Positions 6,701 through 60,430 of a stretch of DNA of 64,000 nucleotides are shown piece by piece (positions within the stretch are counted from its first letter, which is position 1; every line of letters starts with the position of its first letter). Location of the stretch: positions 558,001-622,000 of the forward strand of contig JAFCMP010000001.1 in the NCBI GenBank assembly GCA_017506865.1, written 5' to 3'. This DNA is from Tribonema minus. Its lineage: Eukaryota > Sar > Xanthophyceae > Tribonematales > Tribonemataceae. The notes under the pieces are model-generated. The model saw only the letters and a list, made by a program, of their open reading frames with translations, made no database searches and was not told the DNA's origin. The position numbers and the translations under genes are program-made.

Positions 6701-8165
6701 GCGCTCAGTCACCGGTCGTGCGAGATTTTTGATGCCGCAGCCTGGACTGCTCCAGGAGGTGCAGCGGCGCTCAGGTCTGCGGTGCGTTAGGGTTAGGGTC
6801 AGACTTAGGGTTAGGATTAGGGTTAGGTCTGCGGTGCGTGTGCGGGCAGGGCATGAACGGTTGGTGGTAGGGTTAGGGTTAGGGTTAGGGTTAGGGTTAA
6901 CGGTTGGTGGTATGAGGTGATGCTCCGCACTCTTACCCTGACCCTCACCCTAGCCTTAACACTGACAGAGTGAGCTCGGAAGACCTCGCTCTCCAGCAGT
7001 CCACGCTTAAAAATAGGGCTTGGGTGAGGGTTAGTTTAGGGTAAGATAACCCCTACCCGTAACCAGATCCAGGTAATCCTGAGCATTGGTGCAGAGCTGT
7101 TTGAAAATGACATTATTGCGGATTGCAGCCGCAATGGGGCAGCAACGCTCGTCGCAGCGCCGCTCGCCACCCGCGCCCTGCCCATCACCGAAATCTGCGC
7201 CCTCATCTGTCGACTTAGTTCCTGCCGTCTCTCAGGCGGGCGCGGACGCTCTCGTGCAGCACGAACGGCACACCAATCGAAATTTGGAGTGCAGTCTGAA
7301 CTGTTGCATCGTCAGCGCCCCCGTCTCGTGGCCACCAGCAGATCACCCCCCGACCACTCATCTGCCAATGTTTTCCGCCGCTTCGACACGCGCCTCAGGC
7401 GGGGGCGGACGTCTCCGCGCGGGACAACCTCGGCATGACGCCGCTGCACCTTTTACAAACTGGTCAGATTTGCAGCACAGTTCCGATTCTGGTGTACATA
7501 GTGAGCGCCCTCGTTTCACCGCCACCAGCTTAGGGGTCAGCCCAACCGCTCATCCTGCACCCCCCTCCGCCGATATTTTCAAGACACTCCTCTGGCGGGC
7601 GCGGACGTCTCCACGAAGGACGACCAGGGCATGACGCCGCTGCACCTTTGTTTGACAAACCAATGTGAACTCGGAACGCAGTCTGTGTTGTCAGTGCCCC
7701 CACTGGCAGCTTAGTGACAGCCCGACCGCTCATCACGCGCCCGTCTCCGTCGATGTCCTCCGCGTCTCTCGCAGGCGGGCCGGAGGTCTCCACGCGGGAC
7801 GACCAGGGCATGACGCTGCTGCACCTTTCTGCAAACCGGTCACAATTTGCATCACAGTTTGGATTCTGGTGGTGTCGCCCCCTCGTCTCGCCGCCACCAG
7901 CTCATCACCCCCCAGCCACTGACAATTGTTCTCTGCTGTTTCATTTCAACGTACGCCTCAGGCGGGTGCGGACGTCGCCGCGAAGGACGACCAGGGCATG
8001 ACGCCGCTGCACCTGGCGGCGCGCGACGGCCAGGCGGCGCTCGTCGCGGCGCTGCTCGACAGCGACGCCCCCCTCGAGGCCGTCGACGCGCAGGGGCACA
8101 CGCCGCGCTACTACGCGGAGCACAAGGGGCACAGCCGCATCATCGGGCTGCTCGCCGAGGCGTAG
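3725..8165 (+). CDS. Ankyrin-repeat protein, 4 exons, 263 aa
   Basis: Exons: 3725-3852, 5197-5515, 6123-6263 and 7962-8165; phases are consistent and all introns are GT..AG. The short N-terminal exon (MASDSSK...) leads into ankyrin repeats. Typical signatures are visible: TAMHKAAEGGHTDILQLLIE, NTPLHIACDGGHLEVAKVLV, NTPLHAALMS, MDLVKLLLSNGADFRYANH, STPLHFLAYS, GMTPLHLAARDGQAALVAAL and HTPRYYAEHKGHSRIIGLL, so about six repeats, ending in LLAEA. Ankyrin stacks bind other proteins; the partner cannot be inferred. An in-frame ATG at 3659 is an alternative start. Intron 3 (6264-7961) is remarkable: it holds interstitial TTAGGG arrays and four decayed copies of the 5' edge of the last exon, listed separately. 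Acyl-CoA-binding ankyrin proteins have similar repeats, but no acyl-CoA-binding domain is present here. Confidence 0.87.
4761..4776 (+). repeat. Short interstitial TTAGGG repeat
   Basis: About two and a half TTAGGG units lie in ankyrin intron 1. They are telomere-like in sequence but far too short to be an active telomere. Confidence 0.6.
6786..6900 (+). repeat. Interstitial telomere-like (TTAGGG)n array
   Basis: Two blocks of TTAGGG: a degenerate one at about 6786-6828 (with TTAGGA variants) and a clean run of about five units at 6867-6899. They lie inside ankyrin intron 3. A-rich-strand versions (ACCCT-type) follow at about 6930-6955. The orientation change suggests more than one insertion or repair event. 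If TTAGGG is the host telomere unit, these could be relics of telomerase-mediated break repair. Confidence 0.8.
7236..7961 (+). repeat. Four intronic copies of the 5' edge of ankyrin exon 4
   Basis: The start of the real last exon (7962) is echoed at about 7236, 7399, 7595 and 7775. Each copy carries 20-60 bp matching the exon start (GCGGGxGCGGACGTC... then the stretch for GMTPLHL), preceded by intron sequence with a polypyrimidine stretch. Acceptor AG is kept at 7236, 7399 and 7775 and lost at 7595. Spacings are 163, 196, 180 and 187 bp. After the shared edge each copy degenerates into unrelated intron. They can act as decoy acceptors; using them would add short reading-frame pieces. Confidence 0.85.
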
Positions 8166-10788
8166 CCCCCCCCCCCTTCCCCCCTGCAAATTCACGAGCG
8201 TAGTGATGTACAGTGCTGCGGCGAAGATGTTGCGTGCTGAGCGTGCGCCGCTGCGATGCGGCTGCGGCGGCGGTCGGGGCGAGCCACGCGCGGGCGGGCG
8301 AGCGCGCGGTTTGCCGCTGCTGCGCTGAACCTGCGCAGAGCTTCGCAGCGGCTGCTGGCGGCGGCGGCGGCGGCAGCGGCGCAGACGGTAGTGAAGACTA
8401 CAGTCCTCATCGGTCTACCTCCGCAGCAGCATGCGGCAGCGGTTCGTCCTCTCGAGATCACCAGTGTCGTTGCTGCTACTCAGCCGGCGCCCGGAAGAGC
8501 AAACGGGCGGCCCTCGTGCAGCCCCAGGGATCTGAGGCGACCGCTGACCATATACATACTGATTTCAAACTGCGTGATTGACCCTGAGGCTCCGTTTGTT
8601 TGCTGTGCACACACGCGTCGCCTGTCTTGGATATGAGCCTCACTATGTACAAGCTGCTCAGTGTCAAACGGGCGGGACACAGCGATGAGAGGGGCTTGGA
8701 TTGAGCAGGGTATGCCTACAGGATTTGCACATGCGCAATGCTGATTGTGCGGATTCTGGCAGTCGGCTACATGCATGCAATGCTGCAAGCGCGCATGAGT
8801 TCCTCCTACTGAATCACCAAATGCCACACTCGATGTGAGGTCAATGCAAGGTGCTTGCATATGATGGACTGACATTAGGTAGGCAGGCAGGTGTGCGCAG
8901 TGCTGCGTCAAGCGCCAACGGTGCTTGCAGCCTGCAGTGTGTAATTTTTGAAGGGCTGATCCTACCGTACGGAGACAGTAGGCATGCACATGGTCACAGA
9001 CGCTAGCACATGGTGGCACACTGCTGGAGGTGCACCATTCTATTTCTAGCCCCCGTCTGCGGGGCTTTGCTCTTTTGCTCAGCGTCATCGGGGTCAACCC
9101 CCGCAGAAGAGGAAGGGTCCCCCTGGCACCAGCGAGGTCGACTTCACACGTGCTGCCGCAACGGCAGTGTGATTGACGATGACGGTTTCATGAGACGTGG
9201 TGGTAAAACCTCGTGTTGAGGCTGCTGATGTCAGCTAAACGCAATATATACACAGTAATTGCCACCCTGCAAGCACCAGTCTGCCCTGGGATATCATAGA
9301 TGTACGCCCACTTAAACTGAAAGCCGCCACAAGCTCCAGCCTAGGCTGGGTCTGCTCGGATCTTCATTGCCACCTCCTCTTACAATGTCGTTGACAATAC
9401 AGCGCATGCACGCCATCATGGCGATGATGAGCAGCAATGCTGCATCAGCACGCTGCTGCACTGTCGTGATGTAAGGTGTTCTGCTGATCGCTCTGGAATG
9501 TACGCCACTCGCGCATTGTGCATCGGTTGATGGATGCGAGGGGCCTATGATCAGCATATGCGCACAAATGATTTATTACAGCACCAAGGCGACAACGGGC
9601 GCCTTGTGGGCCTCATTCACCCAATGTCATGCAATCACTGCACAAGCACAAGTACTACCTGCAGAATCGGACCGGCCACCATATGATGGCTCCGGAATAC
9701 ATACGGTCATTGCCTGATGCCATATGATAGCTCCCGGACACATGCAGTCACTGCTTGATGCATGAGCACTGCAGCATCGGGCCGACCACCATATCGCGCT
9801 TTCACACTGCATTTGAGTATGTGGCACAAAAGCGTAGTTACGAAAAGAATGGTGACACATCAGTTGTTAGCATCACGAGGTGCAAGATGCATGCCAACGG
9901 TTCATGATGACGACAAATAACGCCAGCACACTGCACTGCAAGAGAGTCTGATGCTATGCTGGTGACCGAAAGCAGGCAGACCGCAAGTGCCCAGATGCAA
10001 ACGCCAGTTTGCTTGTGAACACCAAAACAGAGGGCAGGGGATGGGACAGCGCCAATGCAGTGGATAAGAGATGTGATAGTGACAAATATACATTATTATA
10101 CGTGACAGCTATGAACACAAGATTCAACTGGAACTTGAAACAACTCAGAGAGCACCTCTCGCGCACTCCGAAGCAACATGCACGCCCCTGAGGAGGGGAA
10201 GTGCTGGACTAGGGTGCCTAAAGGCACAAAAGAAGATATGATGGACTGTCACACAGCCCCGCAGGTCCGGAGAAAGCCGGGGGCTGCAGGGCATAGATGG
10301 GTGATGACGCTCAGTCATCGAGTTCAGGAACTGAGCACTGTGACATGTATCCCTTGAAGAAGAGGGTAAGGCGGGAGGGGGGGGGGGGGGGGGGGGGGGA
10401 TGACAAGGGGCCTGCTAGCACAAAGCTACAGACACATAGAAAGCCCATGTAGGCCACTCAGATAAGTACAAGCTCACACCATATCAGGCTGCTGCAGCAG
10501 GTGCTGGTTGCAACACGCTACTCGGGAGAGGAGAGCAAAAGGGGAGTGTGTTTCTCGGCTGCTGGGTAACCGCCTCGGAAAGCAGTCCTCAAGGGGAGGG
10601 GAATGAGAAGGAGGGGGGACTGGCAGACAGGCAGGCAAAACGCCCTGAGAGCTGCCGACAGTTTTTGTGATGACGCGCCTGATGTGTTTGCTTCACAAAA
10701 AGCACGCAGCGTCGAGGCCCCATGTATGCGAATGTCCAGCCGGAGCCCTGACGCAAGTGGAGCGTCCACTTCAAGTTTGTGCTGATGA
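8166..10788. other. Intergenic region, no recognisable gene
   Basis: Contains the 3' flank of the ankyrin gene (a GC-rich Ala-coding-like stretch to about 8400) and then about 2.3 kb of lower GC with only short, family-less reading frames on both strands. A poly-G run lies at about 10377-10399. A segment at about 10300-10340 has a TGATGA box and a CTGA but no convincing snoRNA fold. Confidence 0.5.
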
Positions 10789-12911
10789 TCAGTCCTTCAC
10801 GCAGTTCATGCGCGTGCCGTTGAAGCCGCCGCTGGTGGTGTTGTCGCAGTACTCGTCGGCGGCGCAGCAGACGTTGTTGGGCGTGCCGTACGCGTAGTAG
10901 AGGTAGTAGTACAGGTTCGGGTCGTTGAAGATATTGAGGTCGTCCGTCGTGGCGCCGCACGGCTCGCGCCCCTTGGGGCAGGATATGGTCTTCTTGCACC
11001 TGTTGCGGAGGCACAGGTTGAAGTAGGGATATGTTGTTGAAGTTGAACTCCGGCAGCGCTGAAGGATACCCAGTGCAAGGCGCTCCAAGAGGTGCCATAG
11101 GAATCATCAACAGCCAGCAAAACCAACGCTGCAAGATGTTGTGATGACAGCGCACATGAGACAACAGACCTGTGATGTAGCAGGCCTGAAGTTCAGGTGC
11201 CAACAGAGAGGGCGCAGTGCAGCATCAACCGCTGCTGGCCATGCCAAGCTTGTGCACACAAATTCATTGCAGATGGCAACAGTCTTGCACCGCCTCCGCC
11301 AGCCTCGACTTGACCACGCAGCACTACTCAAGGCGAGATGCCTTTGCTACTGCAGCAGATTCCTCCGCCAGCCCGACCTGACCATGCAGCACTACTCAAG
11401 GTGAGGTGCCTTTGCTACTGCAGCACTTCACACGCACGCATGCGCGCGCCCCTCACAGCACCCACCTGCTGACATTGTCTTTGCCAAAGTCGCACTCCTC
11501 GTCCGCGGCGCAGCACACATTATCCGGCGTCTGCTCAAAGTAGTGGCCGTGCTTGTTGGTGAACATGGTGACCTTGCGCCCGCACGCCTGCCGCCCCTTG
11601 GCGCACGCCAGCTTGGTGCACTTGGTCGTGTGCGCGGCGCCGCTGTCGGGGTCCACAGTGCACTGCTCGTCCGCCGCGCAGCAAGTCGTCGAGTGAGTCG
11701 GGTAGTTGCCCGCGCGGCTGTGCCCGCATGGCTGCCGGTTGTCTCCGCAGTCGAGGCGCTTGGTGCACTTCTTGGGGGCGGCGGCGGTTGAGCCTCCGCC
11801 GCGGGTGGCCACGCAGGACTCTGCAAGCACGCATACACACACAGGTGCAAAACCTTGATCAGCAAAGGTCAAGTTGATGCTTCAATGGTCAGATGCAATG
11901 ACCTAGGAGCTCTGGCATGTGCCAAATCATCTCTTGGGTGCAAAGGTGTATTGCCTTTAGACAGAATTGTTGGCGCACCAAGGCTTCTTGATGATGCATG
12001 CATGTTGTTTCAAAACATTTTGGAAAGTGACGTGTGACATCGCCCGGATCTTGTAGGTAGCATTCACTGTTGTCGTGCACGTGTACACGGTATCAGACAT
12101 GATGCATCTCAGCTCACCTGCTTCCGTGCAGCAGTCTGCCTTGGCACCACATGGGGGGATGTAGTCGGGACACAAGCAGCTGCCCACATACTTGCTGTGT
12201 AGACTTGCGCCCCACACGTAGTCTCTGTCCTTGCAGACGCATTTGTTGGCCTTGGTGCACACAGCGTCGAGCGTGCTTGTATTCTCAACACACGTTTTGC
12301 CATTGGGGCACTTGGCAGTCAGGCGGTTCTTGTCACCTATAGTGGGAGGATCGTCCAAGCAGGCGGTAAGAGAGCACAGACATGAGTACAGTGGCATGTG
12401 AGGTGGTGTGTGGAAAGGTAGTGTTTATGTTGTATATGGCCAAGAAAATTGCAACGATTGCAACACTCGACGTATGGTGTGTGTGCAGAGCACCAAGGCA
12501 CGCAGGCTCGACTTGTGTGGGCAGTGAAGGTGACAAGACAAACCTGAGGGGATAATTCTATGTAGAGTGCCTTTGGGCAAGGTCTGAGGCGCATAAGCAG
12601 TAGTGTGTTGTGAAGTTTCATGAAGGTTGGGGCCTTGCGAGACCATGAATTTAGGATAGTCTGCAAGCACAAGGACAGTGCACTGTACTAAAGGTACAGT
12701 GTGTCGCGTTCGTCATGCATTGCAATGCCACCAACTTCCTATTGCACCAACTCGTCATGCACCACAACCGTGCTGACTCTACTGCAGCAAGCAGTCGTAC
12801 ACATGTTGGCGCACTACATAGTTGGCACCTGCGGTACCTCTCACCTGCAGCATTGCTTGCCAGCAGCGGCACGCTCAGGAACGCGAAACACAGTGCGCTC
12901 AGCGAGACCAT
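10789..12911 (-). CDS. Secreted cysteine-rich repeat protein, copy A, 4 exons, 283 aa
   Basis: Exons on the minus strand: 12911-12845, 12336-12118, 11820-11466 and 10999-10789; phases are consistent. Exon 1 encodes a signal peptide (MVSLSALCFAFLSVPLLAS). Exon 2 gives a Cys-rich module (CPNGKTC ... CVCKDRDYVWG ... CLCPDYIPPCG ... DCC). Exons 3-4 give three related units of the form C-x4-C-x4-R-x-x-CG ... CCAADE-x-C, seen as CTKRLDCGDNRQPCG, CTKLACAKGRQACG and CKKTISCPKGREPCG, each ending in CCAADE. Even Cys spacing in a secreted protein suggests disulfide-bonded repeats, perhaps cell-wall or extracellular. I do not recognise the family. The paralogue lies head-to-head at 13229-15470 with the same intron phases. 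The protein ends in VKD. Confidence 0.85.
11291..11425. repeat. Tandem duplication of about 62 bp in intron 3 of copy A
   Basis: A CCTCCGCCAGCC...CAGCACTACTCAAGG...TTTGCTACTGCAGCA unit occurs twice. A relic of the same sequence, reverse oriented, lies downstream of exon 3 in copy B (about 14495-14575), so the duplication is younger than the gene pair or was lost from B. Confidence 0.7.
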
Positions 12912-13228: not shown

Positions 13229-15470
13229 ATGGTGTTTCTGAACGCGCTGTGCTTCGCGCTGCTGACTCTGCCCCTGGTGGCCAGCAAAGCTGCGGGTAAG
13301 TCAGAATGGTCATACCAAAAGGCTGCTGAGCTGCGTGTCGATGTCAAGCTCTGCACATGCTTCACTGTGCGGCAACGCACCGCCTGTTCTGCATCGATGG
13401 TCTGCGCCGAGCCCTACTTACGTTGCACCTCGCATGTATCCAAGCTCCTGTTCCGCCCGATACCAGCACATCACTATTCACCTAGGTGCATCCATGACAG
13501 CTCACAACTTGAAGCCTGGGATAGATTGTACTAATGCCTGTGCTCTCTTACCATCTGGTTGGACAAATCCTCCCTTTCTAGGTGACAAGGGCCGCCTGAC
13601 TGCCAAGTGCCCCAATGGCAAAACGTGTGTCGAGAACACAAGTACGCTTGACGCCGTGTGCACCAAGGCCAACAAATGCGTCTGCAAGGACAGAGACTAC
13701 GTGTGGGGCGCAAGTCTACACAGCAAGTATGTGGGCAGCTGCTTGTGTCCCGACTACATCCCCCCATGTGGTGCCAAGGCAGACTGCTGCACGGAAGCAG
13801 GTGAGCTGAGATGCATCGTGTCTGATACGATGTACATGTGACAATGTTGCATGCTGCAAGATCCTGGCAACGTCACATTTCACTCTAAATGCTTGATTCA
13901 TCAACGAGCCTTGGTACGCCAACATTTTCCTGGGCGCTTGTGAGGCAGACCGTCTGCATGCAATACACCTGTGCACCCAAGAGATGGTTTGGCGCACGAG
14001 CGACGTCGTCGCGAGTGAACATCAAAGCATCCAACTCAACCTTGAAGCGCGCTAATCCAGTTGTGAACGTGTGTTGTGTGTACGCGCGTGCTTGCAGAGT
14101 CATGCGTGGCCACGCGTGGCGGAGGCTCAACCGCCGCCGCCCCCAAGAAGTGCACCAAGCGCCTCGACTGCGCAGGCAACCGGCAGCCATGCGGGCACAG
14201 CCGCGCGGGCAACTACCCGACTCACTCGACGACTTGCTGCGCGGCGGATGAGCAGTGCACTGTGGACCCCGACAGCGGCGCCGCGCACACGACCAAGTGC
14301 ACCAAGCTGGCGTGCGCCAAGGGGCGGCAGGCGTGCGGGCACAAGGTCACCATGTTCACCAACAAGCACGGCCACTACTTCGAGCAGACCCCGGACAATG
14401 TGTGCTGCGCCGCGGACGAGGAGTGCCACATCGGCCACCGCGACGGCAACGTCAGCAAGTGAGTGCTGTGAGAGGCGCGCATGCGTGCGTGTGAAGTGCT
14501 GCAGTAGCATGGGCATGACGATGTGACACTCAGTTGGTAGTGCCGCGTGGTCAAGTCGGCGCTGGCGGAGGCGGTGCAACACGTGACAGACTGACAGTGT
14601 GCAATGTATGGATGATTGTTCGCACACTTAGCAATCATGGTAGTTTCAGCCCAGCAATGCAAGCAGATATGATTAAAAGTTTATAGATGGCATGGCACAC
14701 TGCACGCAGGTAAACACGCCAGACAGACAGTTCGTGCTGGAGCGCAAGCAAAATTTCACCATATGCCCATCATGATTTCCTCAAGATCTGTAGCAATGCA
14801 TTCTCCCAGCGTTTGACTATTACCGTATTGACCGTCCACTGGCACCTCGTGCTGCATACTTCTATGTAAAGTAGTAAAACAGTTCAGCTCTGACAGAGAA
14901 CACATTTGCCCTTGTCAACGAATGCTAAAAGCTTGCACACAGAACCCTTTTGACTGCTGTGGATATGGTGGCACTGTTTGACTCGTGGCCAATGACCGCA
15001 ACAGCGGCGACCACGATCATTGGCGGAAGGGCACTTGCGGCTGACCATCCCTTGTCACCTAGAGCTCTGCGATCTTTTGAGTCGTTTTCATTAACGCTGG
15101 TCCTCCTGCTGCCCGTGGCTCCTCAACAGGTGCAAGAAGTCGGTCTCCTGCCCCAAGGGGCGTGAACGTGTACAAGAGCCAACAGTTCAGCTCTGATAAA
15201 GAACAGCTTCTCCATTGTTAACATTGGTCATCTGCTGCTGCCCAATGACTCCTCGACAGGTGCAAGAAGACCATTTCCTGCCCCAAGGGGCGCGAGGCCT
15301 GCGGCGCCAACTTTGATGGTCTCCACATCTTCAACGACCCCAACCTGACCTACTACCTCTACCTGGTGTACAGCACGCCCAACAACGTCTGCTGCGCCAC
15401 CGACGAGTCCTGCAACGACACCACCAGCGGCGGCTTCGACGGCTCGCGCATGCGCTGCGAGAAGTCTTAG
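13229..15470 (+). CDS. Secreted cysteine-rich repeat protein, copy B, 4 exons, 285 aa
   Basis: Exons: 13229-13295, 13582-13800, 14098-14458 and 15260-15470. Exons 1, 2 and 4 have exactly the lengths of copy A (67, 219, 211 nt); exon 3 is 6 nt longer (HIGHRDGNVSK versus DFGKDNVSR). The signal peptide is MVFLNALCFALLTLPLVAS. Three Cys units match copy A, ending in CCAADEQC, CCAADEEC and CCATDESC. The second half of exon 2 (about 125 nt) is identical to copy A, while exon 1 and exon 4 have diverged more. This pattern suggests gene conversion in the middle exons. A truncated copy of the exon 4 start lies in intron 3 at 15130. Function is unknown; a secreted, disulfide-rich structural or binding role is inferred. 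Confidence 0.86.
15117..15235 (+). repeat. Truncated copy of the 5' edge of copy B exon 4, with flank
   Basis: An acceptor followed by a 5' exon fragment (TGCAAGAAG...TCCTGCCCCAAGG) at 15130-15170 repeats the start of the real exon at 15260. The flanking intron is duplicated too: an AACAGTTCAGCTCTGA block occurs at about 14879 and again at about 15181. So one intron-plus-exon-edge unit was duplicated, with about 130 bp between edges. Confidence 0.82.
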
Positions 15471-17565: not shown

Positions 17566-19441
17566 CTATTCCTGCTCCCCCGGGCGAGTCAATATGTTTT
17601 CTGAGATGAGGCTCCATGCGGCTATCTCCGGGTGCTGCTCCTGCACCCTCTGCGTCCCCTTGAGCGCCTTGAGCTCAACGACGCAGGCAAACTCCACCAC
17701 AACGCCCCCCTGACAGAAGGGGAGAACAGGGACACGAGAAGGGGGGGGGGGGGGGGTTGGGCTGAGAGGCAACGCGATCATGTGTAAGCGTGGTTTACTG
17801 TACAGGATTTGCTTTGCCGAGAGAGAATCTCACAAAGCAGGCGACGTGGTGCCTGCAGCCAGAGCAGCTGACTGATGCGCTGCGGCATGAGACATTCGTG
17901 CGCGCAGGCGTGCATCGCCAGGCACATCAGCCATTGCTGGCGAAACTCGATCGCCCCGCGTGACGACTGCCAGGCACCGCCAGGCACTGACTTGCTGCCA
18001 GCGCCTCCGAGTGTGACGCATGCCACCACTCACGTCGTGATCATTGATGATGGTCAATGAGGAGAGTTTCAATAGTGGACTCAACCTCTCTGTCGCTCCG
18101 CTTCCCCGGTCTGTGCGCGCGCTTCGGCGCCTGGCGGTTGCATGCTACTGCAGTGGATGCACAAGGGCGCCACGCGTGCGCGCCCAGTGCAATTGCCGTA
18201 GTACATTGTGCATACTTTGCAGTATAGGTTGTCTGAGAGTAACGCCGCCAGCACAAGCGCGGTGTGCCGTGGTCCAACGCCATGTGCTCTGCTTGTCTAT
18301 CTCTTATTTCTCATTGTGCCATATATGTGGCAAGCAAATGATTCATATACAACATGTATGGCAAGACCTCTCCGGGTGTGCGCAGCTAGCAGGGGGGTTG
18401 GCATTGTGCAAATGCATGCATGCAGCCCCACTGGCCAGTGTCGCACAGAGCCCTGAGAGAATGAAATGGACTGGGACGCAGCCCATCTGGACACGCCGTG
18501 GCATGCCCGGAATAGCATTGCGTAGCATATGCCAGCTCGACTTCGAAATGACGATGCATACATGGTAGTGTCTGCCAGCGTGATGTACCGCTGGCAATCA
18601 CATCGTGTCCGCGAGCGTGATGGTACCGATGACGATGCCAACCACATCAGTGACCAGCAGCGCCGGCAATGGCTGACTACACCGCCCACTGCTGCGCACC
18701 GAAGCAGCCAGTCAATGCCGTGAACTCCATTTGATGCACTTCGTGCCTTTCCGACAGCTTTGAATGGTCATCCAGCCTCGCCGAGTCTTTGACCAGCTCG
18801 GCCGCTGCCTGCATGGGCCCGCCATCAGCAAAGCCATCAGCGAATGACAGGCGTGCGCCGTTACACAGCCCATGTCTGTGAGAAACGCTGACCCTAGCAG
18901 CGCGTTCGACGCTGCCTGCCTGCAGTTCGTGCCCTTCCTCGACAGCGCATGCACAGTGACGGCCAGCCCTCACCTGGCCCTTGACCAGCTCCACCGCCGC
19001 CAGCATGGTCCCGCCGGTGGCGATGAGGTCGTCTATGAGCAGCACGCGCGTCCCCTGCTGCACCGCGCGCCGCTGTATGCACAGCTGGTCCTCCCCCTGC
19101 GCGTCGTCCCCCTTGTACTCCTTGCTGTAGCTGCCGCCCACGACGACGTCCGGCATCTTGCCCTTCTTGCGCAGCATGAAGAAGGGCTTTTTGAGCGCCA
19201 GCGCCAGCGGCGGCCCCAGCAGGAACCCCCGCGCGTCGAGGCCGCCAACACAGTCTATGTCCATGCCCGAGTAGCGGTGAGTGAGAATTTGGATGCAGAG
19301 CTGGAACATCTCCACATCCCCCACCAAGCCACCGACATCGTAAAAGCGGTCTATAGATTTGAACCTGTAGTAGGGAATCACGGCAGCGATCCTCTGGGCG
19401 TCCGGTCCATCGGGTACATATTCTGCTGGAGTTGACGACAT
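17566..19441 (-). CDS. APT1: Adenine phosphoribosyltransferase, 2 exons, 203 aa
   Basis: Exon 1 is 19441-18974 (156 codons) and exon 2 is 17709-17566; both join in phase 0. The enzyme converts adenine and PRPP to AMP in purine salvage. Evidence: the type-I PRPP-binding loop VLLIDDLIATGGTMLAA, the GLDARGFLLG segment, and KKPFFMLRKKGKMPD. The C-terminal exon GGVVVEFACVVELKALKG completes the family's last strand and helix. Splicing gives ELVKGQ-GGVVVE, as expected for the family. The length is normal (about 180-200 aa). The start MSSTPAEYVPD was chosen as the last Met before the conserved region; no transit peptide is obvious, so it is probably cytosolic. The 1.26-kb intron holds a diverged copy of the 3' edge of exon 1. 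The promoter and first codons are duplicated 6 kb away at 25395-25616. Confidence 0.92.
17743..17757 (+). repeat. Poly-G run in APRT intron
   Basis: About 14 G on the plus strand, that is a C-run in the transcript just upstream of the exon 2 acceptor at 17710. It probably acts as the pyrimidine tract. Confidence 0.6.
18716..18835 (-). repeat. Intronic copy of the 3' edge of APRT exon 1 and its donor region
   Basis: In the transcript sense, a block matching the end of exon 1 (GCATGGTC..CGGCGG..GAGCTGGTCAAG) recurs at about 18832-18784. It is followed by intron-like sequence that also matches the start of the intron (CTGTCGAGGAAGGGCACGAA versus CTGTCGGAAAGGCACGAA). The donor GGTGAGG has become GGCGAGG. 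The edge-to-edge distance is about 190 bp. Confidence 0.78.
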
Positions 19442-19968
19442 TGGCAACGCTGTGTGCGGTCTGCAACTAGGGTCAGCCGTGAGTGCCGCGAGCACTTTCC
19501 AGATCCTGCTCACTCCCTTACTCACTCTCACTCCCTTTACTCGACTAAACCCCCACAACAACACAACTCACCTCTTGCAAACTTCACTTCTCAGGTTGAA
19601 GTTCGGGGATGTGGCTGGCCTTCCATCCTAATATATGGGCTTGCACACAGTAACACGGGCGTTTGGAACTGAGGTCTCAGGAATGCTGAGGTTTGTAGTT
19701 TTGTGGCAGTACATTACACACAGCAGTGAGGAAACTCATGCTGAATATGACAACGCATTGCGGCATTGACCACCTGGCGCACAGAGACATCAGCATCAAG
19801 TTGAAACGCTCAAGTGCTGGTGGCATTCAGACACAGCAACACACCGCAAACAGGTGTTTCATGTCGGAACGTGTGCATGGAAGCAATGGTCAAATTATGT
19901 ATTATGTCGCTGCAGGCCCGGGACAAATGCATAACTCCATGCAGCACAATCCAACTTGACATCAAGAC
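19442..19968. promoter_or_regulatory. APRT promoter region and 3' flank of the AT-hook gene
   Basis: The first about 170 bp upstream of the APRT start (19442-19612) are conserved in the second copy at 25395-25616, so they probably hold the core promoter and 5' UTR. On the minus strand there are short GAGTGAGAGTGAGTAAG-type repeats (about 19510-19540). The rest shows no gene. Confidence 0.5.
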
Positions 19969-21948: not shown

Positions 21949-22377
21949 CGGTGTCCTAGCAGGCGCAGCAGGAAGTGTGTGAGATGTTTGAATAGCTGCG
22001 CTGCGTAAAGATGTGCCGCCGTCAGCTCAGGCGAGCAGCAATGATTTTTCCACTAGTTGAAGGTGGAAGGTCACCGTCTCTGCCAAGTGAAGTGCCGCGC
22101 TTATATAGCGGTTCAAGTACGGGCACAGCATTGTGAGATCCTCGCAGTGACCAGAGACCATAGCAGCAGATAACTGTCGTCCTGGCTGCGAGCAGGCAGC
22201 GCGCGCTGGTGAGTGCGTGCTTTGCACAAAGACACGAGCCCGCAACAGACATTCGCATGGGTAAGACTGCCAGCACACCGTGCGCGTGAACGACAGAGCG
22301 GCTCTCCGCGTGCAATGCGGGCTGCAGCCTTATATCTCTCACGCTGCTGCTGCTGTCTGTGGTGCAGGTGAACGCAC
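21949..22377. promoter_or_regulatory. Divergent intergenic region
   Basis: About 430 bp between the inferred starts of the AT-hook gene (minus) and the zinc-finger gene (plus). It is probably shared promoter and 5' UTR space. No motif stands out. Confidence 0.35.
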
Positions 22378-23100
22378 ATGGCATCCGGCCGCTTCTCCTC
22401 AGCTTACCTGGTAGACTTTGACGACAGCAGCCAAGCGTTTGTGCCGGCTGGCAGCCTTAAGCCCCCTGCAGACGCCAAACAAGCACGCTGCATCCTCCAG
22501 TTCAAGCGTATCGACAGCCAGCCCACCGCGCACGACCGTGAGGGTGGTGGCTCGCTGGTACGGGACGTGAAGTCGCTCACGACATCGGGCCAGGCAGCGG
22601 ACACTTGTCTGGTCGTTGTGCTGGCGATGCTGGCATACGTCGGCAACAGGAAGGAGCCCTTTCCCGCGCCCCTTCAGAGTTTGCGATTTGTGTCGCCAAC
22701 CAAGCTGGAAGTCACCCTGGTTTGCGGGGATGACCAGCGGTACGACGAGGTGGAAGCCCAGTTCCAAGGCGTATTCAAGAGCCTTACATTGCTGCGCGGT
22801 CCCCAGCACCGCCTGCCTGTCAAAAACAACAGTCTTCCAACAGCGCAGCCAGCCGTAAACGCATCTCAGCGTGTTGTGTCCCCGGTGAATGGTGGCGCAT
22901 TTCACAGCGGCGCGTCGCACAGTGCGACTGCACAGAAAGCAAAGAAAACGAAGAAGTGCCCAGACTGCAGCAGAAAGTTTGCTGACCACACAGCCCTCAA
23001 AAGCCACCAAGCCGCCATTCATTTCCACTGCCAAACATGCGGCGCGGCCTTTGAGACCAAAAGCCTTATGAAGAAGCACCACAAATCTGCCCACACCTAG
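22378..23100 (+). CDS. Two-finger C2H2 zinc-finger protein, single exon, 240 aa
   Basis: An intact single-exon frame from ATG 22378 to the TAG ending at 23100. Two C-terminal zinc fingers have perfect C-x2-C-x12-H-x4-H spacing: one begins CPDCSRKF and ends SHQAAIH, the next begins CQTCGAAF and ends KHHKSAH. A basic linker (KAKKTKK) precedes them and may be a nuclear localisation signal. Residues 1-150 form a folded-looking region (CILQFKRIDSQ, CLVVVLAMLAYVG, LEVTLVCGDDQRYDEVEAQF) that I cannot assign. With only two fingers, it may bind DNA weakly, or bind RNA or protein. No introns, unlike most neighbours. Confidence 0.8.
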   Translation: MASGRFSSAYLVDFDDSSQAFVPAGSLKPPADAKQARCILQFKRIDSQPTAHDREGGGSLVRDVKSLTTSGQAADTCLVVVLAMLAYVGNRKEPFPAPLQSLRFVSPTKLEVTLVCGDDQRYDEVEAQFQGVFKSLTLLRGPQHRLPVKNNSLPTAQPAVNASQRVVSPVNGGAFHSGASHSATAQKAKKTKKCPDCSRKFADHTALKSHQAAIHFHCQTCGAAFETKSLMKKHHKSAHT

Positions 23101-25394: not shown

Positions 25395-25616
25395 GCGATC
25401 CTCTGGGCGTCCGGCCCCCATCGGGCACGTATTCTGCTGGAGTTAACGACATTGGCAACGCTGTGTGCCGTCTGCAACTAGGGTCAGCCGTGAGTGCCGT
25501 GAGCACCTTCCAGGTCCTGCTCACGCTCTTACTCACTCTCACTCCCTGTACTCACTGCTCCCCCCAATAATCCACCTAGAACAGCAACTTCACTTCCCCA
25601 GCTTGAAGTTCGGATG
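25395..25616 (-). pseudogene. Duplicated APRT promoter, 5' UTR and first codons
   Basis: About 220 bp match 19386-19612 in the same orientation at roughly 85-90% by eye. Shared features include the leader peptide-coding stretch TALPMS-TPAEYVPDG, the ATG, and the GACCCTAGTTGCAGAC upstream block. The match stops after about 15 codons, and the rest of APRT is absent. It lies about 175 bp upstream of the TMCO4 start and points away from it. It could be a dead 5' fragment, or a captured promoter working as a two-way promoter for TMCO4. Confidence 0.82.
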
Positions 25617-43300: not shown

Positions 43301-44776
43301 GCGCGCTCGAGGGGTTCAATGTCATGGCCGGCGGCGGGCTCGGGCGCACGCACGGGAAGGACACGACGTTCGCGCGCGCGGCGGACCACATCGGGTTTGT
43401 CCGCGCCGACCGCGCGCTTGAGTGCTGCAAGGCGATACTCGCGGCGCAGCGCGACCACGGTGAGGGCGGCGCGCGCGCACGTGTGCGTCGTGCATGCGTC
43501 AACTTCAACTTCAATTGTGACGCGCTTGTCATCGCGCAGGCGTGCACGAGCACGATCAAGACGCGCATGCGGCGCAGAGCACTCGTCAGGTCGTCCGTAC
43601 GCCGCACTGGCCGCTGCTTTCTGTAGTCTTTCTGAATCCTGCACTGCGGCGTGAGGTAAGCGACAGCTTGCTCAACACTGCTCGACATCACGCAGCTGGC
43701 TGCTGACTCGTTCACGGAGAGGGCGGGCCTTACGCAGGCGCATGCGCGGACCACATGCATCATGGCGCGCCCTCGATGCCACGTACCTGCTGCCGCGATC
43801 ATGATCACTGGTACTGGTCAGCGCAAAGCGACAATGGTGGCGTCACCGCATGCTTGTGCCAAGTGCATGCACTTCGCATGGCCCTGGGCGCCACGGACAG
43901 GTGCACAGCAAGCCGATGGCACATATAGCGCGCGGTGCGTACACCATGGCTACCTGCGTGATCCCCCCCCCCCCCCCCCTCCCCCGTGATGCCAGGGAAC
44001 CGCGAAGTGCGCGCCAACGCACGCATGAAGTACCTGGTGCACACTCTCGGCGTCAGCGCCTTCCGCACGCTGGTGGAGTCGTACATGGGGGAGCCGTTTG
44101 AGCCGTGGCGCGCGCTGCCGCCCTGGAAGTACAGCGACTGGATGGGCTGGCACGAGCAGGGCGGCGGCAAGTGGTTCTATGGCTTCAACATTGAGCAGGT
44201 GACGTGCCCACTAGGTGGTTTATTCACTCAGTCTGACTCGGCTTCTGATTCAATGGCCTTGAGATAGGGATGGAAGGAGCGTGGTGTACAAGGGGGGGGG
44301 GGGGGGGGGGCAATTTGAGGTGGCGGGGGAAGCGGTTCTTCAGCTTCAGCATTGAGCACAAGCAGTGACATAACCAGTATTTTGCTCAGGTCATTGACTG
44401 TCTCTCAATGCAACTATGGCTTCAATATTGGGCAGGAGCGGTGACATGCTCACTCGCCAGGGGGCTCGCGCCTGAACTGCTAGTCACCTCCTCGCGCCTG
44501 AGCCGTTGCGCCAGTAAGTAACCTAACCCTTATCCTAATCCCAACCCTAAGGCGGCGTGGCAGGTGCGTCAACACTTGGCAGGTGTGGTTTGCATCCACT
44601 GGCAGCTGCACACTTCAGACTGTGCACTTTCGCCGTCCCCCATGGATGGCCACAACGCCGGGGTGATCAAGTACCTCATCATCCCCCCATCAATGTCCAA
44701 ATGCCATGGTGATAAAGCACCCCACCAAATGAACAAACAAACGTTCGCGCGCGTGCGCACGCTGACCATCTTCACC

Positions 44777-44807
<31 letters not shown>

Positions 44808-46950: not shown

Positions 46951-49127
46951 CGTGATTGGGGTAATCAGCCACACAGAAAAACAGGGATCATCAAAGCCAG
47001 TAAAACGGCATCAGCTTTTGCGACCACTTGTGAGGAAACGAGCAATAATGATGGAGGGAGCTGGGCAATCACCCGCACGGAACGCCAAGGGATCATCAAG
47101 CAGGCAGTAGCTGTTGTAATGTCTACTTCAAAGAAGCATGACTCTGCTGTGTGCGCTCATGAGGCTGCATGGCGCGCATGGTGTCCCGGTTTCAAAGTCA
47201 AAATTTCATGCAGATGCTCAGCAAGCTCATGATGCCGGCCGGCGCAGCAGAGCGACATCGCTTTTGTGGTGTATGGTAGCACAAGGCGCCTCAAACTGGC
47301 ACGAGCGGGACATGTGTGATGTCAATGACCATTGACCGGGCAGCAGCAATCAGCATGCCAAGCCATCCAGTACCGCCAGAGCTGCTGCATGAGTACACTC
47401 TATACGAGATGTATGCTACTGCCACACCAGCGTTATGGTGAAAGCCGCTGCACGAGCGCACCACATACCATAGAAATACCACTACTTATTAAACCCTAAT
47501 AGCTGCTGGCATTGCGCACATGTGGCGCGTACTGCGACCGTACTAAGAGTCCGGCTGATTGGTGAACGCTTTGTCGCGCATCTGGCGTATGTAAGGTATG
47601 TCTGTGCGCACTGCGCGAAGCCGGGCGGCTGCCATCCGCTCAGAAGCGGTAGCGCCACTTCTAAGGAGCAGTGTCCCATGGAAGTATGCTGCAGGTTCAA
47701 TGCATTGCTTCTCAGTAGTGTTTGCTGCTTTACTCTGCGCTGCTTGCGCCTCTGCATGCAGTGTATAACCACGATGGTTCTTCTATGTAATACTGTCCTG
47801 CATGGCATGCTGTGACGCCCCCTGCCCCTTGTGAACGCATGAGCTTGAGCTGGAACATCCGATTGCGGATTACAAGGCTCGGTCCTGCTTGGGACACGCC
47901 ACTCGGCGCTGCTGCTACCATGCATCTGGCAGGGCAGCTACGACGTGCGCTGCAGGTGACTGAGCACTGCCGCAAGTGAATTACACTAAGGTACGGCGGC
48001 TGTGCAAGCAACGTAGAAGTAAGAGTGGCAGCAACAGCAAGTTCAGTTGTAGCGCGACAAACTCTGATGTGTTACATCATGTACACTTAATTGTCAAGTT
48101 CACCCTAAGGCCTCTCTGCAACACGTGTCAGGATGCAAATACGGCAAGTCATATGTATGCACCTGTCTGTGCAAGTGGCATCATGCGCAGCCCCCCATGA
48201 TCCAGGGACACTGACTTCAGTCACAGTAGGTGCATCAAAAGGAGGTACAGCAACAGCAGATGACCGCACTGCGAATCGCTGCATTCATCAGCATCAAGTT
48301 TGCACAAGGCGAACAGCACACGCTCCCAAGACACAAGCTACGGGGTCACCATGGCCTCTCAGATGTAACAATATGTATTGCCACAAAAACATGAAGACAA
48401 GTCCCGCAGTTGTATGCTGCTGCCCCCCCCCTTCCTACACACCGTGTAGGCCTACCGCCCCTACCACTCTCGGTCGTGTACAGGTGGCCTGCCCGCCCAC
48501 CAAACCAAATGCGCAGGAATGGCGATGAAATGGCAGACATGACACCAATTTTTGCCATGTAGGCCACAAAGGCCCGTTTGCACGGCCACAAGGGCACAGC
48601 AACCAAAGCTCAGTGTGCTTGGTGTGCACAGCCCGCATGGCGCCATGGCCACCCTAACCTTACGCAGCTAATGACGCCACGGTGCAGAGTACGGCAGCAG
48701 CTGTCGCGTGGCAATCGGCAGTTGCGCCCATGCAAGCGAGGTCGCCTGCAGCCTCGCGACATGCCCCTCCCTTTCCCCCCTCACAATTCTCACTGCACAG
48801 GCCTTCAAGGTACAGAGGGGGCACAGGCTATGCCTCTCCTATCACTGCTGCTGTGACCGCAGATGATAGTTTTGAGACGTTCCAGCTCTGTTCCCACTAC
48901 TGTAGAGCCCCAGCAGACCCCCCTCCGTGAGCCCCTCCCCCCCCACCGCCTACTTCCAGCATGTGGTACAGGCATACCCCCCCCCCCTGCCCCCTCCCCA
49001 AACTGCTGTTGCAGCCGCAGCTCCAACCCGACAGCTTGCCGGACACTGCACCCCCCCCTCACCACCACCACCACCACCTAATTCCAGATCTTGTGGTACA
49101 GGCACGCCCCCCCCCCCCCCCCCCCCC
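46951..49127. other. Intergenic region, no recognisable gene
   Basis: About 2.2 kb between the sulfite reductase stop and the 3' end of the REEP-C2 gene. A TGTAA motif at about 47115 could be a polyadenylation signal if this is a green alga. A 128-bp duplication (ATGTGGTACAGGCATACCCC, then CCCC at 48961 versus the TGTGGTACAGGCACGCCCCC block at 49092), with C-runs, borders the REEP-C2 stop codon. No gene seen. Confidence 0.5.
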
Positions 49128-52100
49128 TTACTGCAGCCTTAGCGCCAGCGAGAGCTTGCCGGACACCCCCACCGGGTTGTCCTTGGCCTTGTCCTCAAGG
49201 GCAAAGTCCCCCTGCATCTCCTCGCCGCCCGCGAGCGATGTCAGCGGCACCTGCACAGTGCCGATTGTCAGGTCCTGCCCGAAGCCCGTCTTGTGGCACA
49301 CGATGGCGACCACGCACGCGCCGGGGGCGACGTCGGACGCGCGCACGCGCAGCGATAGCTCCTCCCCCCACCTGGGCTCCGTGCTGTTGGGCTTGGTCCT
49401 GCGGCGGAAGGGGAGTATTGTGGGGGAGGGGGGGGGGGGGGGAGTGTTGAGAAGTAGAGAGGGGGGGGCGGCAAGAGAGTATCAGGTGCGTAGTGATGTC
49501 TAAACAAGCTGTTGCGGCTGCATGCTGTGGGCTTAGTGATGTGGTGACGTCATGGGCGAGGGGGGGGGGTTGGCAAGCCAAAACAGGGTGCTATCAAGCT
49601 TGGGTTTGTGACTTCTGAATGGCATGCTCCTGCCGGAACCATTGGAGGTTGCTTTAGATGATGCCAAGCCCTTCTGGCTTCCACACTACGGATGGCTTGT
49701 TAGCAAGGCAATCACGGCTATCGCACCTGCATTTACAAAGCAGTAGCTCAGCGTGACCAGCTTAAGGTGAAGAGCCAATGCTTCAGGCAAAGCTGTCGAG
49801 TAGATGTACAAGATCCGCCATACAATAATTTTGCAGCAACAGCAGAGGCAGCTTTTTGCAGCGTTGACATTTTAAACTTGGTTGCATGCAAGTCCATTTT
49901 ACAAGCTCGCCGGCACTTGTTGAATGTTTCTTGAACCCAGGGAAGTCAACAGTTAAAGAGCACCTGATAGTCCACTCCTGCTTGAAGATGCCCTGATTCT
50001 GGGACACTTTCAAATTTAATGGACCCGGGTACGCATACCTGGTGCAGCTTCCCGCATCTCTGATCTGTCAAAACCGGCTCATAACGTCAAGAGCCCGGTG
50101 GTCGACACTACAACTGCCTCGCCAACTTCAGCTGTGTCATACGGACAGCAAACCTCACCTGCATTGCTTTCTTGCAGTGAGCAGTGGCACTATGTTATTG
50201 TTACCATAGTGAGTGAGTGGTTTACCAAAGTGAGTGAGTGGTGGCACTATGTGATTGTTACCATGGTGAGCTCATGACCTAGAGACGACATGACCTGGGC
50301 CGTATGCGCCCTGACTGATGTACAACCGCGCAAGTGCTTTTTTACATACTTCAAGCATAACTGTGAGGACCACACTTCAAGTGTGCACTTTGCTTCGTGG
50401 CATGCTTAACTCCATTTCAGACCATATGACAAGCAAGGCATGGCTTCCATCCTGCACTAACCATCAAGGCAGCGCCCTGATGCAGTTAACGCCCCGGAGG
50501 CTATTGCTGATGCCCTCGCTTCCACGTCGTTTTCGTGCGAATACGTCCATGACATGTCCACACGTACCACATTGAAATAACCGCCGCGGCACTGCGGGCT
50601 GTCGGATACTTCTGTTGACCATCGCACTGTCTCAAGCCCCTCACAGCACTTGCGAGCACTACACGAAGCACAAGCACGATACTTACTGTATACAGTGTTA
50701 TACTTCTGTCTATGACACTTACTGTACGCCATGATGTACTTCGAAGTATACTTGCACAAACTTCCGAAGTAAGAGATATGTAGACTCGCTTTGTCTTGCA
50801 CTTGTCGCTGACAGTCTTCCCGTCCGCGCCCATGACGCACAGCACTTGCTGCCCAATATACAGTGTTGTTGATGACACATACCTTTAGGAGCCGTGCACA
50901 TACATAAGCTACTCATGAGTGTTTACATAAAGACTCACTTTGTCTTGCACTTGTCGCTGACGGTCTTCCCGTCCGCGCCCATGACGTACAGCAGCACGTA
51001 CGCGTCCGTGGCGCCCGCCTCCATGAGCGGCAGCCCCGCAGCGCTCAGCACCCGCACGCTGACCTCCTGCTCCGCCGCCGCCGCCTGCGCATCCGCATCG
51101 TCCGGCTCCACGACCGACGCCGAGGCCGCGGAGCGGCTGGTGGTCGTTGTCTGCACGGTGTAGTGCAGGGGTGGCAGATGTGGTCATGACAATGGCACCA
51201 TATGTAACTTGAAAGTTGCAAATAAACAGAGGCATCGTATCAGCCGCCTGAGCATCCGCATCGTCCGGCTCCACGACCGACGCGGAGGCGGCCGAGCGGC
51301 TGGTGGTCGTTGTCTGCACGGTGCAGTGTGACGGTGAGCAGATGTGGTCATGACAATGGCGCCATATGCGCAGTGCAGTGTGACGGTGAGCAGATGTGGT
51401 CATGACAATGGCGCGATATGCGCAGTGTAGTGTGACGGGTGAGCAGATGTGGTCGATGTGGTCATGACGATGACGCCATATGTATATATAAACTCGGAAG
51501 CAAACAGAGGCATCGTATCAGCCGCCTGAGCATCCGCATCGTCCGGCTTTGCCACAGACGCCGCCGCCGCCGCCGCCGCCGCCGAGCGGCTGGTGGTCGT
51601 GGACTGTGCAGCGTAGTGCAGGGGTGTGGCGGATGAGCAGCTGTGGCCATGACAATAACGCCATCTGTAGATTGAAGCTTGGAAGCCAACAGGTGCACAC
51701 CATATGAGCCGCAGAGATGGCAAAACTTACGCCGTATGTGTAAAGTTGAACTGAAAAGCATATACATATACATAGACTTCCAGGTATATGTGTAATGTGT
51801 ACTTCAAGTACAGCTGTATGAAGTATGGCACAGAGGTCATGCGCCCCTGCGCGTTTGACCTTGTGCTTAGCCAGCACGCTTCCTGAGGATTTACATCTGA
51901 CCGGCTCCGCCACGTGCAAGCGTACCACTGCCATCTTGAGAGCTCGTTGCAAGTCAAAGGCATGCACGGACAGTTCCCGCACCAACAATCAGTTCTACAA
52001 TGGCAGTCATGGTCTTGAAATTACGACAGCGGTGACGCACCTTTGTGGCGGCGCCGCCGCCGCCGCCGCCGACCACGCCAATCGCCGGCAGCACGTATGG

Positions 52101-53853: not shown

Positions 53854-55899
53854 TCTCCCTCTCTCTCTGAATTGCTGAGCGAGAAAAGCACTATATTATT
53901 CACCAGTTCCCGAATAGATACTCCCGAAGATAGATGCCAGAGTCACCACCTGCGAGCGCCTGCCGAGCTCTGAGCTGAAGTAAACAAGCGTGCTCCTTTC
54001 CGTGAGAGCAAGCGAACTGCGAACCTCCTGGCCAGCTCAAGCTTGTGCAGAGCTTGTTCTGATCAGAGAGTCCTTGTTTGGGGCCTTCGCGACCCCCGAA
54101 TCGGCCAGAACTCCCCCCGCTCCTTCCATTGAAGTTGACGTCGGGAGTGTGTGTGCAGAGATCGAGGCCGCCGCCAAACTGCATATGACGATAGGGGGCG
54201 TGTACTGGAGGCAGCGTTGTACATGCTCTCAACAGAGCATGGGGAACGGACATGTTCTGCGGGCGCTGGAGGGGGGGGGACGGTGTGGCTGTCATTTGCA
54301 CGCGGTCCAAGCTGCGGACGATACGGAGCAAACAGGATCTGCCAGCCGGCACATCCGTCAGGCGCATGGTGATTGCCATGCGCCTCATTGTGCAAGCGCT
54401 GCGCTCCGAGTTCCGGATCGGAACGGAGCTCACGTCAAACAGGATCGTGCCAGCCGGCCTACCCGTCAGGCGCATGGTGATTGCCAGCAATCACTACAAC
54501 ACCGTCACAGGGCAAGGGGGATTGATTCCCTCAATAGACGTCAAATGCTTGACGTTGTACTGGCGTAGGCTGTAACAACCCCTTGTGTACCTGACAATGT
54601 CAAAAGCATTCGACGTCTGCTGAGGGAGCGCTGCCCTGCCCTGTGACGGCTTTGTAGTGATTGCTGGCGACCCCCATGCGCCTGACGGGTGTGCCGACTG
54701 CCAGCTGGCATGATCCTGTTTGGCGTCAGCGCCGTATCGTCCGGAGCTTGGATTGCGTGAAATGACAGTCACGCCGTCCACCTCCTCCAGTGCCGTCTGA
54801 AACATGTCCGTCCCCCATGCTCGGTTGAATTGCATGTACCATGCCGCCTCCAGTACACGCCCCACATCGTCATTAGCACGTGGCGACCGCTCAATTTGGA
54901 CTTGACCATGTGGCGCTCTGTAGGCAGCACGTGCCTGCCAAACGGGGAGTGCGTGCAGTGCATAAGTGAGTCAACCTGCAGTAAAACGCTTCTAGATCGG
55001 TCGAATGATTTCATTGCTAGCACTGCCACCTTGAGTTCGTATCATACACACGTCAACTCATACCCACCTAAGGTCAGGGTTCAGGAAGATGCGGGACTTC
55101 TGTGATACTGACGGTATGGTCGGGGTGGAACGGGACTGGTGAGTGCGCAGAGACACTCCAGGGGATGCATCAAGCTTCAATGATCAGAAGGCATGCAAAT
55201 GTTCAAAGCCATGTGCAAGGCAGTGCAAGTGGGTGTGCCCCAACGCTCTACGAACCGAGGAGACTCGCCGTAAAGCTGCTGACATGGCGTCGCATACACA
55301 CACACTGGCAGCCCAGCCGGTGGCACAGGCCGGCTTGGGCACTGTCAAGCAACTCACACAGATGTTGCCATGACATCGCAGCGTGGTCAACAGCTTGAGC
55401 AAACTTGCGCTTGCTCACACACCCACATCGACAACTTCAAGCATCACGTCACAAGCCAAGTCTTCCTAGGTCTTTCAAAGGCACGGAGTGATGAGCTGTA
55501 ATGATGCACAAACCAGCACAAGCTCGCACCAGTTCCAGATGGCCAAAGTCCGCATGAGTGGTGAACAAGTGCGGGTGCGCTCGAACGTAGGCGTAGCTTG
55601 GCGCCCTGAACAGCTTCAGCACTTGCAGGCTGTCATCCTGACCGCAAGTACTGCGAAAGACAGCAGCAGCGCATGTGGTGATCAAATGAGTTGTTTAGAA
55701 CAACAACAACCTTGCACAGACCGCCTTCTGCCTCCCGTTGGCGCAGACTCGTAAAAGGCATGATGTACTATGGTCACACCGCAGCAAACATGCATCTTCT
55801 CACACCCCGAAATCAGCCAGTTGGTCCCCGGATTGCCGTCGCCATTCTATTGGGTGAGCACAGCCAACGAGGCAAGGCAGATCCGACCAACTGACCATT
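53854..55899. other. Intergenic region with a long palindrome, no recognisable gene
   Basis: About 2 kb between the divergent starts of REEP-C2 and NF-YC. It contains the inverted repeat at 54185-54873 (separate entry). No other gene or RNA is apparent. Confidence 0.5.
54185..54873. repeat. Long imperfect inverted repeat (palindrome)
   Basis: The left arm is about 54185-54553 and the right arm about 54599-54873, with a spacer of about 45 bp. Shared landmarks: GGGGCGTGTACTGGAGGC at the outer ends, CGTCAGGCGCATGG inside, and GACGTCAAATGCTT / AAGCATTCGACGTC at the inner ends. The left arm carries an extra internal duplication of about 107 bp (AAACAGGATC...GTGATTGCC twice). Each arm has a weak open frame (GRVLEAA...EVDGVTVI-like in the right arm, minus strand) of unknown family. 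It may be a folded-back gene fragment or a foldback element. Confidence 0.8.
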
Positions 55900-56842: not shown

Positions 56843-56881
<39 letters not shown>

Positions 56882-59175: not shown

Positions 59176-59206
<31 letters not shown>

Positions 59207-59510
59207 GGCAACAGCAGCAGCAACAGCAGCAGCAGCAGCAGCAACGGCAACCACAGTATCGACAACCGCAGCAGCAGCAGCAGCAGGAGCAGTTTCTTGC
59301 GCTCCATGCGCCACCCGCCAATCTTCAACCGCAGCAGCAAGGGCAGCAGCGAGCGCAGCAGCCGCAGTTTTTGAGCGAAGCGCTGCAGCTCAACGACGCG
59401 CAGGTGGCGGCGCAGCAGCAGCAGCTGCAGCGGCAGCTGCAGCAGCAACAGCAGCACCAGCAGGCGCTGCACCAGCAGCACCAGCAGGACCTGCAGCTGC
59501 AGCACGCTCT

Positions 59511-59541
<31 letters not shown>

Positions 59542-60319: not shown

Positions 60320-60430
60320 TGGCCCGCCGACAGGGGCGGACCCTGGCGCGCGCTGCCTCGGACGTCAGCAGTGCAACCATCTGATGGCGCGTCGGCAGGC
60401 ACGAACCCTGGCGCACTCTGCCGGCGCACG
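60296..60430 (+). repeat. Tandem copy of the NF-YC 3' end
   Basis: A unit of about 66 bp covering the last codons, the TGA and 3' flank (GTCAGCAGCGCCATCTGATG, then GC..CG..CAGG...ACCCTGGCGC) is repeated once more immediately downstream (about 60362-60427). Confidence 0.85.

Follow-up and report, generated by a model that had tools for sequence, protein, structure and literature searches.

The window analyzed here, a stretch of 64,000 nucleotides of Tribonema minus DNA (contig JAFCMP010000001.1, positions 558,001 to 622,000, forward strand) that forms the whole evidence base of this study, carries multi-exon genes at a GC content of 58.6%, and several of their introns contain partial copies of the edge of the adjoining exon. 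A gene finder written for this purpose, which took the window itself as its training set and was rerun with a minimum intron length, gave donors that are mostly GTGAG or GTGCG and acceptors that end in GCAG. We curated a set of 10 genes with 32 introns and 64 exon-intron edges, on the basis of domain continuity and splice signals, with no transcript support. Weakly supported exons were omitted (e.g. between 28514 and 30611), and the quality of the gene models limits every count given below. Pfam matches were obtained to ankyrin repeats, phosphoribosyltransferase, DUF726, methyltransferase, NIR_SIR, TB2_DP1_HVA22 together with C2, CBF/NF-Y and kelch. The designations APRT, TMCO4, sulfite reductase, REEP-C2 and NF-YC, some of them taken from the preliminary description of this DNA, serve as presumptive labels. 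There are also two Cys-rich paralogues, A and B, of which only B was scanned, its protein giving no Pfam match. No relative of TMCO4 was found in the genome-contig or viral-contig collections, each searched with one query.

Copies were sought with one probe per edge, made of 60 exonic and 12 intronic bases, which was aligned to the adjoining intron and called positive at a score of at least 36; the maxima obtained after shuffling ranged from 18 to 36 depending on the edge. The scores were bimodal, with a strong copy at 14 of the 64 edges. Two low-complexity edges were set aside (NF-YC exon 59389, with a CAG run, and REEP-C2 exon 52041, with a GGC run) and the weak edge 28075 (score 29, z 6.2) was left uncounted. 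The final set consists of 23 copies, which belong to 12 edges and are distributed over six genes (ankyrin, Cys-rich B, APRT, TMCO4, sulfite reductase and REEP-C2). Sulfite reductase edges 43000 and 44198 come from the edge probes and were absent from the initial BLAST list. For the copies at 30442 and 44361 the alignment ends before the edge, so that the edge was placed by extension, the aligned blocks lying at lags of 176 and about 162, respectively.

None of 44 edge probes was positive in the intron on the wrong side. Among mid-exon control probes, 2 of 34 were positive (the NF-YC run and an ankyrin exon, the latter at threshold), as were 3 of 1764 comparisons with introns of other genes (Cys-rich A versus B and two NF-YC edges) and 1 of 176 with non-adjacent introns of the same gene, an NF-YC edge. 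We then scanned the window at base level with 48 bp probes, dropping the low-complexity ones. On the exon side, direct local matches were found for 43 of the 239 probes whose centre lay no more than 24 bp from an edge, for 40 of 344 at 24-60 bp and for 13 of 860 deeper in exons. Deep in introns 373 of 2802 probes matched, a figure that includes the edge copies themselves, and elsewhere 69 of 4335 gave direct matches compared with 88 inverted ones. Shuffles, the inverted control and the other introns rule out a chance origin: intronic copies of exon edges exist, and they are local and element-free.

The four copies of the acceptor edge of the last ankyrin exon (7962-8165, plus strand) lie within 7231-7826 (plus strand; edges at 7236, 7399, 7595 and 7775) and match it at 17/18, 54/61, 63/71 and 48/55 positions. 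A single copy of the Cys-rich B exon 3 acceptor edge, the real edge being at 15260, occupies 15116-15165 (plus strand; 43/50 identical), and none was found in Cys-rich A, whose edge scores 21 against its own intron. The APRT donor edge (real donor at 18974) is copied at 18772-18823 (minus strand) with GC in place of GT. TMCO4 exon 30612-30726 (plus strand) has both edges copied outward, with three acceptor copies within 29991-30478 (plus strand; edges at 30010, 30214 and, by extension, about 30442) and two donor copies within 30846-31031 (plus strand; edges at 30899 and 31029). Directly after the latter comes an array of 3.7 copies of a 176 bp unit (31102-31746, plus strand) that resembles, by eye, the intron part of the adjoining donor copies. 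Elsewhere in the gene, exon 32175-32318 has one copy of its donor edge at 32480-32534 (plus strand; 53/55 identical) and exon 33774 two copies of its acceptor edge within 33408-33641 (plus strand). In sulfite reductase, all on the plus strand, we found three copies of the exon 42046 acceptor edge within 41273-41958 (edges at 41277, 41663 and 41868), a short copy of that of exon 43000 at 42759-42782 (23/24 identical) and two copies of the exon 43996-44198 donor edge within 44322-44454, one of them with the extended edge at about 44361. REEP-C2 exon 50939-51150 has a donor copy at 50782-50844, with GC in place of GT, and two acceptor copies within 51254-51623 (edges at 51313 and 51603), all on the minus strand. 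Two 3' ends are duplicated as well, that of the last REEP-C2 exon at 48934-49046 (minus strand; lag 128) and that of NF-YC at 60377-60422 (plus strand; lag 65).

Two other features of TMCO4 were noted. An 80 bp block occurs twice, 601 bp apart (29970-30048 and 30571-30650), and links what may be the end of an upstream exon with the beginning of exon 30612-30726; it could be a trace of the origin of that intron. The stretch 32740-33290, within a TMCO4 intron, is rich in repeated GACGGAGTCGTGC-like words and, by eye, is possibly an inserted element.

The preliminary description had proposed exon-edge copies in eight genes, acceptor copies lying only upstream of the real exon and donor copies only downstream. 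Splice-edge copies are present in the six genes given above and the NF-YC 3' end is copied, but the array beside Cys-rich A, a two-copy 68 bp tandem repeat in its intron (11293-11425, minus strand), contains no exon edge. The side rule is borne out as well. A tandem unit that contains a border leaves a detached half-exon on the intron side and an exon-joined copy in place, so the rule follows from geometry; it counts against insertion at random places but is uninformative on cause. Introns with copies were longer than the others (median 1356 versus 533 bp; Mann-Whitney p=2.6e-4), as expected if copies extend them, although intron 28514-30611 may be overstated in length because weak exons were omitted from its gene model. 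The spans between the outermost copy and the real edge total 4581 of 26800 intron bases.

The distances between copies are narrowly distributed. Adjacent steps (n=23) have a median of 180 bp, an interquartile range of 163-205 and a range of 79-386, and 17 of them fall within the 130-205 bp first described as typical. The copy nearest to the real edge lies 130-234 bp away at all 12 edges (mean 177, SD 27). In 20000 trials with copies distributed uniformly over their introns, no spread as small as the observed one occurred, and comparison with a log-uniform distribution between 60 and 600 gave P=5e-5. Shorter lags are detectable, since there is one 79 bp step within a family and lags of 57-107 occur in introns and intergenic DNA. 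The range may also be narrowed by selection, as very close duplicate splice sites should compete. Regarding nucleosomes, Chlamydomonas has a published bulk repeat of 178 bp, with values of 156 and 160 for two individual loci (PMC3225300) and of about 160 for two promoters (PMC6952782). The proximity of the mean step of 177 bp to the bulk Chlamydomonas value of 178 is a coincidence of lengths, and a link with nucleosomes is putative.

Once formed, the copies drifted neutrally in their exon-derived parts, where 112 of 1079 sites in the 23 copies no longer match the real exons. The successive codon positions show 34/329, 21/329 and 47/322 differences in 19 of the copies, a pattern consistent with free drift in the copy added to silent change in the constrained real exon. 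Stops and frameshifts are present in several copies, and every copy found covers one curated border. Splice sites were scored with matrices derived from the same 32 introns, both extended edges included. Copied donors (seven, from five edges) decayed faster than neutral, averaging 1.6 bits when drift alone predicts 6.5 (P=0.0018) and the real sites reach 9.8; GT was lost in three and all seven are weaker than the real site. Copied acceptors (16, from seven edges) are neither clearly retained nor purged, averaging 5.9 when drift predicts 4.9 (P=0.145) and the real sites reach 7.9, with AG retained in 14. The idea that the copies keep their splice site therefore holds for acceptors and fails for donors. 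Selective preservation of the acceptors was considered and rejected, a flat 10% rate over 15 copies giving P(sim<=obs)=0.993 and per-copy rates with the lost copy 30442 included giving P(sim>=obs)=0.145.

The sequence between the copies bears on the size of the duplicated unit. A comparison of the spacers between neighbouring copies showed a relation at p<0.05 for 11 of 20 pairs (Fisher p=3e-13), in a test that omits copies 7236, 30442 and 44361, so that two of the pairs are not true neighbours. Homologous blocks frequently fall short of the full step, yet the ankyrin family, the APRT family and the REEP acceptor family show homology that continues into the intron. Since spacers are related and homology extends into the intron, whole units were probably duplicated in tandem, their intron halves being eroded later. 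The two Cys-rich paralogues display the same contrast between exon and intron conservation independently of the copies: A and B differ by 5% in exon 2 and 16% in exon 3, and by 30% in intron 1, despite the presence of a hidden conserved exon in the latter. For intron 2 the alignment is poor, with 47% differences and 339 gap columns. It seems that insertions, deletions and duplications keep remodelling the introns of this window, and the exon-derived parts last better. As for the hidden exon, the segments 12119-12340 (minus strand) and 13578-13798 (plus strand) are near-identical in both paralogues and look like an exon missed by the gene finder.

We also compared exon edges with the rest of the window. 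At lags of 120-250 there are 17 direct repeat families and no inverted one, and 10 of the 17 straddle a curated edge compared with a rotation mean of 3.25 (P=0.0009). At lags of 30-119 none of 8 families is at an edge (0.58 expected), and no inverted family was found in the window at lags of 30-250. At lags of 251-700, 6 of 10 families are at an edge (P=0.005), largely the same families, and two are inverted. Four families at lag 120-250 score 40-44, of which 42759 is counted at an edge and 2101, 6535 and 11484 are not; the other non-edge families comprise the REEP 3' end, the 176 bp array and pieces of two edge families for which the pairs recorded do not reach the edge (30004-30645 and 51419-51712). 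A survey with 72 bp probes gave 264 matches out of 3056 for the interiors of introns after masking of the copies, in 13 clusters of which the array is the strongest, 1040 probes having been dropped. For intergenic DNA the figures are 147 out of 4066 in 8 clusters, with 326 dropped. Direct 9-mers at lag 160-219 show no excess over inverted ones in intergenic DNA (33 and 29), whereas introns gave 55 versus 13 with exons, copies and the array masked and the spacers of edge families left unmasked.

Taking these observations together, we favor, with a probability of roughly 60%, a recurrent local tandem duplication of near-nucleosome length that is tolerated at exon borders and is not a mobile element, in partial agreement with the process first suggested for this stretch. 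A recurrent local mutation would duplicate about one nucleosome repeat of DNA in tandem, as the 130-234 bp and the mean of 177 at edges suggest. When the unit straddles a border, the copy beside the rest of the exon would stay in use, and the outer copy would become a half-exon within the intron and lengthen it. The recognizable exon part is mostly about 35-75 bp, with one of 17 and one of 90 or more, and the remainder of each step would be intronic. Such duplications would survive at borders because splicing ignores a half-exon that has no partner site, as in exon definition, and copied donors would be selected against. The lesion would most likely be staggered-break fill-in or a slippage event about as long as a nucleosome or an Okazaki fragment. 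The breakpoints of the copies look blurred by divergence. Several results weigh against this reading. Spacers of neighbouring copies have no detectable relation in 9 of 20 pairs. On the intron side, binned identity over 0-140 bp is 0.58-0.65 (20 of 23 copies), versus 0.76-0.81 in simulated and 0.49-0.57 in shuffled sequences, while on the exon side it starts at 0.88 (20 copies), so that the erosion of intron halves exceeds the twofold neutral expectation; at a score of at least 40, the intron half is recognizable in 5 of 23 pairs versus 17 of 23 for the exon half. Divergence from the real edge is mostly equal within a family and does not rise steadily with distance. A steady outward conveyor was rejected on that account, and bursts fit better than one-by-one addition; the sulfite reductase gene has one far older copy (17/69). 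Finally, the 176 bp array excepted, families that lie wholly within introns and have a step of about 177 bp are either absent or faint (6535, score 41), although interior duplications were visible in 127-150 of 150 simulations, compared with 141-150 for edge-type ones.

In another reading, the copied DNA would be no more than the 55-155 bp or so that surround the edge, inserted at a distance as in non-tandem repair insertion. The blocks are indeed shorter than the steps, several are sharply bounded, and rice offers a precedent with insertions whose template lay no more than 200 bp from the break (review PMC7407515), but the related spacers and the homology running into the intron argue against it, and we consider such short templated copying rather unlikely. 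Alternatively, borders may, through a positioned exonic nucleosome or breaks linked to transcription or splicing, attract the duplications of about 177 bp. The edge excess at lag 120-250, as opposed to none at lag 30-119, the lack of a 9-mer excess in intergenic DNA, unlike masked introns, and the near-equal visibility of interior duplications in simulation all speak for such direction. Yet intron halves are less recognizable than the exon halves of the same events, so that purely intronic duplications may be missed and part of the edge excess may be due to the better visibility of exon-derived halves; moreover, this comparison comes from a single window whose genes were annotated by the same analysis. 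We thus hold edge direction to be possible but clearly less probable than mere tolerance, and only tentatively put forward exon borders as hotspots of one-nucleosome-repeat duplication from which introns would grow outward in steps of about 177 bp. That the copies are maintained as functional decoy or alternative exons is improbable. The retention of AG in most acceptors and their score above the neutral expectation would suit it, but that difference is not significant and donors are degraded; several copies carry frameshifts and stops, the codon pattern is neutral, and 2 of 12 steps are divisible by 3. Alternative or mutually exclusive exons were rejected in view of the neutral codon pattern, the frameshifts and the weak donors. 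As for a mobile element or introner, intron sequence has been gained repeatedly in several genes, but the copies come from the adjoining exon edge and remain beside it, and the families are mutually unrelated apart from simple-sequence runs, which makes such an insertion extremely unlikely.

Beyond the genes discussed, we noted a C2H2 zinc finger in an open frame at 22372-23097, a stretch otherwise without annotation, and a dispersed direct repeat of 220 bp, 86% identical, whose copies (19386-19606 and 25395-25613) are 6 kb apart. An inverted or near-palindromic repeat block upstream of the NF-YC exons (54185-54873) resembles a small inverted-repeat element. Interstitial telomere repeats of the TTAGGG type are found at 6786-6899, within an ankyrin intron; the same motif read on the other strand, AACCCT, is reported at scaffold ends of Haematococcus lacustris (PMC7617258).

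If exon borders in this lineage are indeed such hotspots, introns would have a general means of lengthening that involves no element. In core-Reinhardtinia algae the usual short-intron peak is reported to be absent, and what introns gain from being far longer than the minimum "remains unknown" (PMC8226300). Border duplication, again if true, would be a concrete mutational answer to the long introns of these algae and would supply cryptic splice sites. A possible attraction of duplication to borders is the interesting point. Patch-mediated tandem duplications at double-strand breaks were reportedly described in rice by Vaughn and Bennetzen in 2014. In the open-licence literature searched, border copies that recur at a narrow step do not appear to have been described, and the comparison with known systems is as follows. 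Break-repair duplications of rice are tandem, partly tandem or non-tandem local and span 10-1000 bp (review PMC7407515); their sizes are broad and the passages of that review devoted to them mention no exon-edge setting, unlike the nearest edge steps of 130-234 bp found here. Tandem duplication that alters intron-exon anatomy is a known route of intron gain, reported for the potato RdRp gene (PMC4974935) and in Drosophila (PMC2891723), and the likeness lies in a tandem duplication with splice signals that changes intron anatomy, the potato unit being itself an intron-exon structure. In both, however, a new intron or intron position arises, whereas the copies described here lie, by the curated models, inside introns that they lengthen; the 80 bp block repeated in TMCO4 might nonetheless be a trace of such a gain. 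Intronic minisatellite or satellite arrays, of which the 176 bp array is one, differ from the edge families, which consist of one to four worn copies anchored on an exon edge. Introners (PMC9860276) share with these families the recurrent growth of intronic DNA across genes, but they copy themselves into many genes, whereas the families here are local and mutually unrelated, with no sequence shared across loci, their matches elsewhere being limited to the Cys-rich paralogues and simple-sequence runs.

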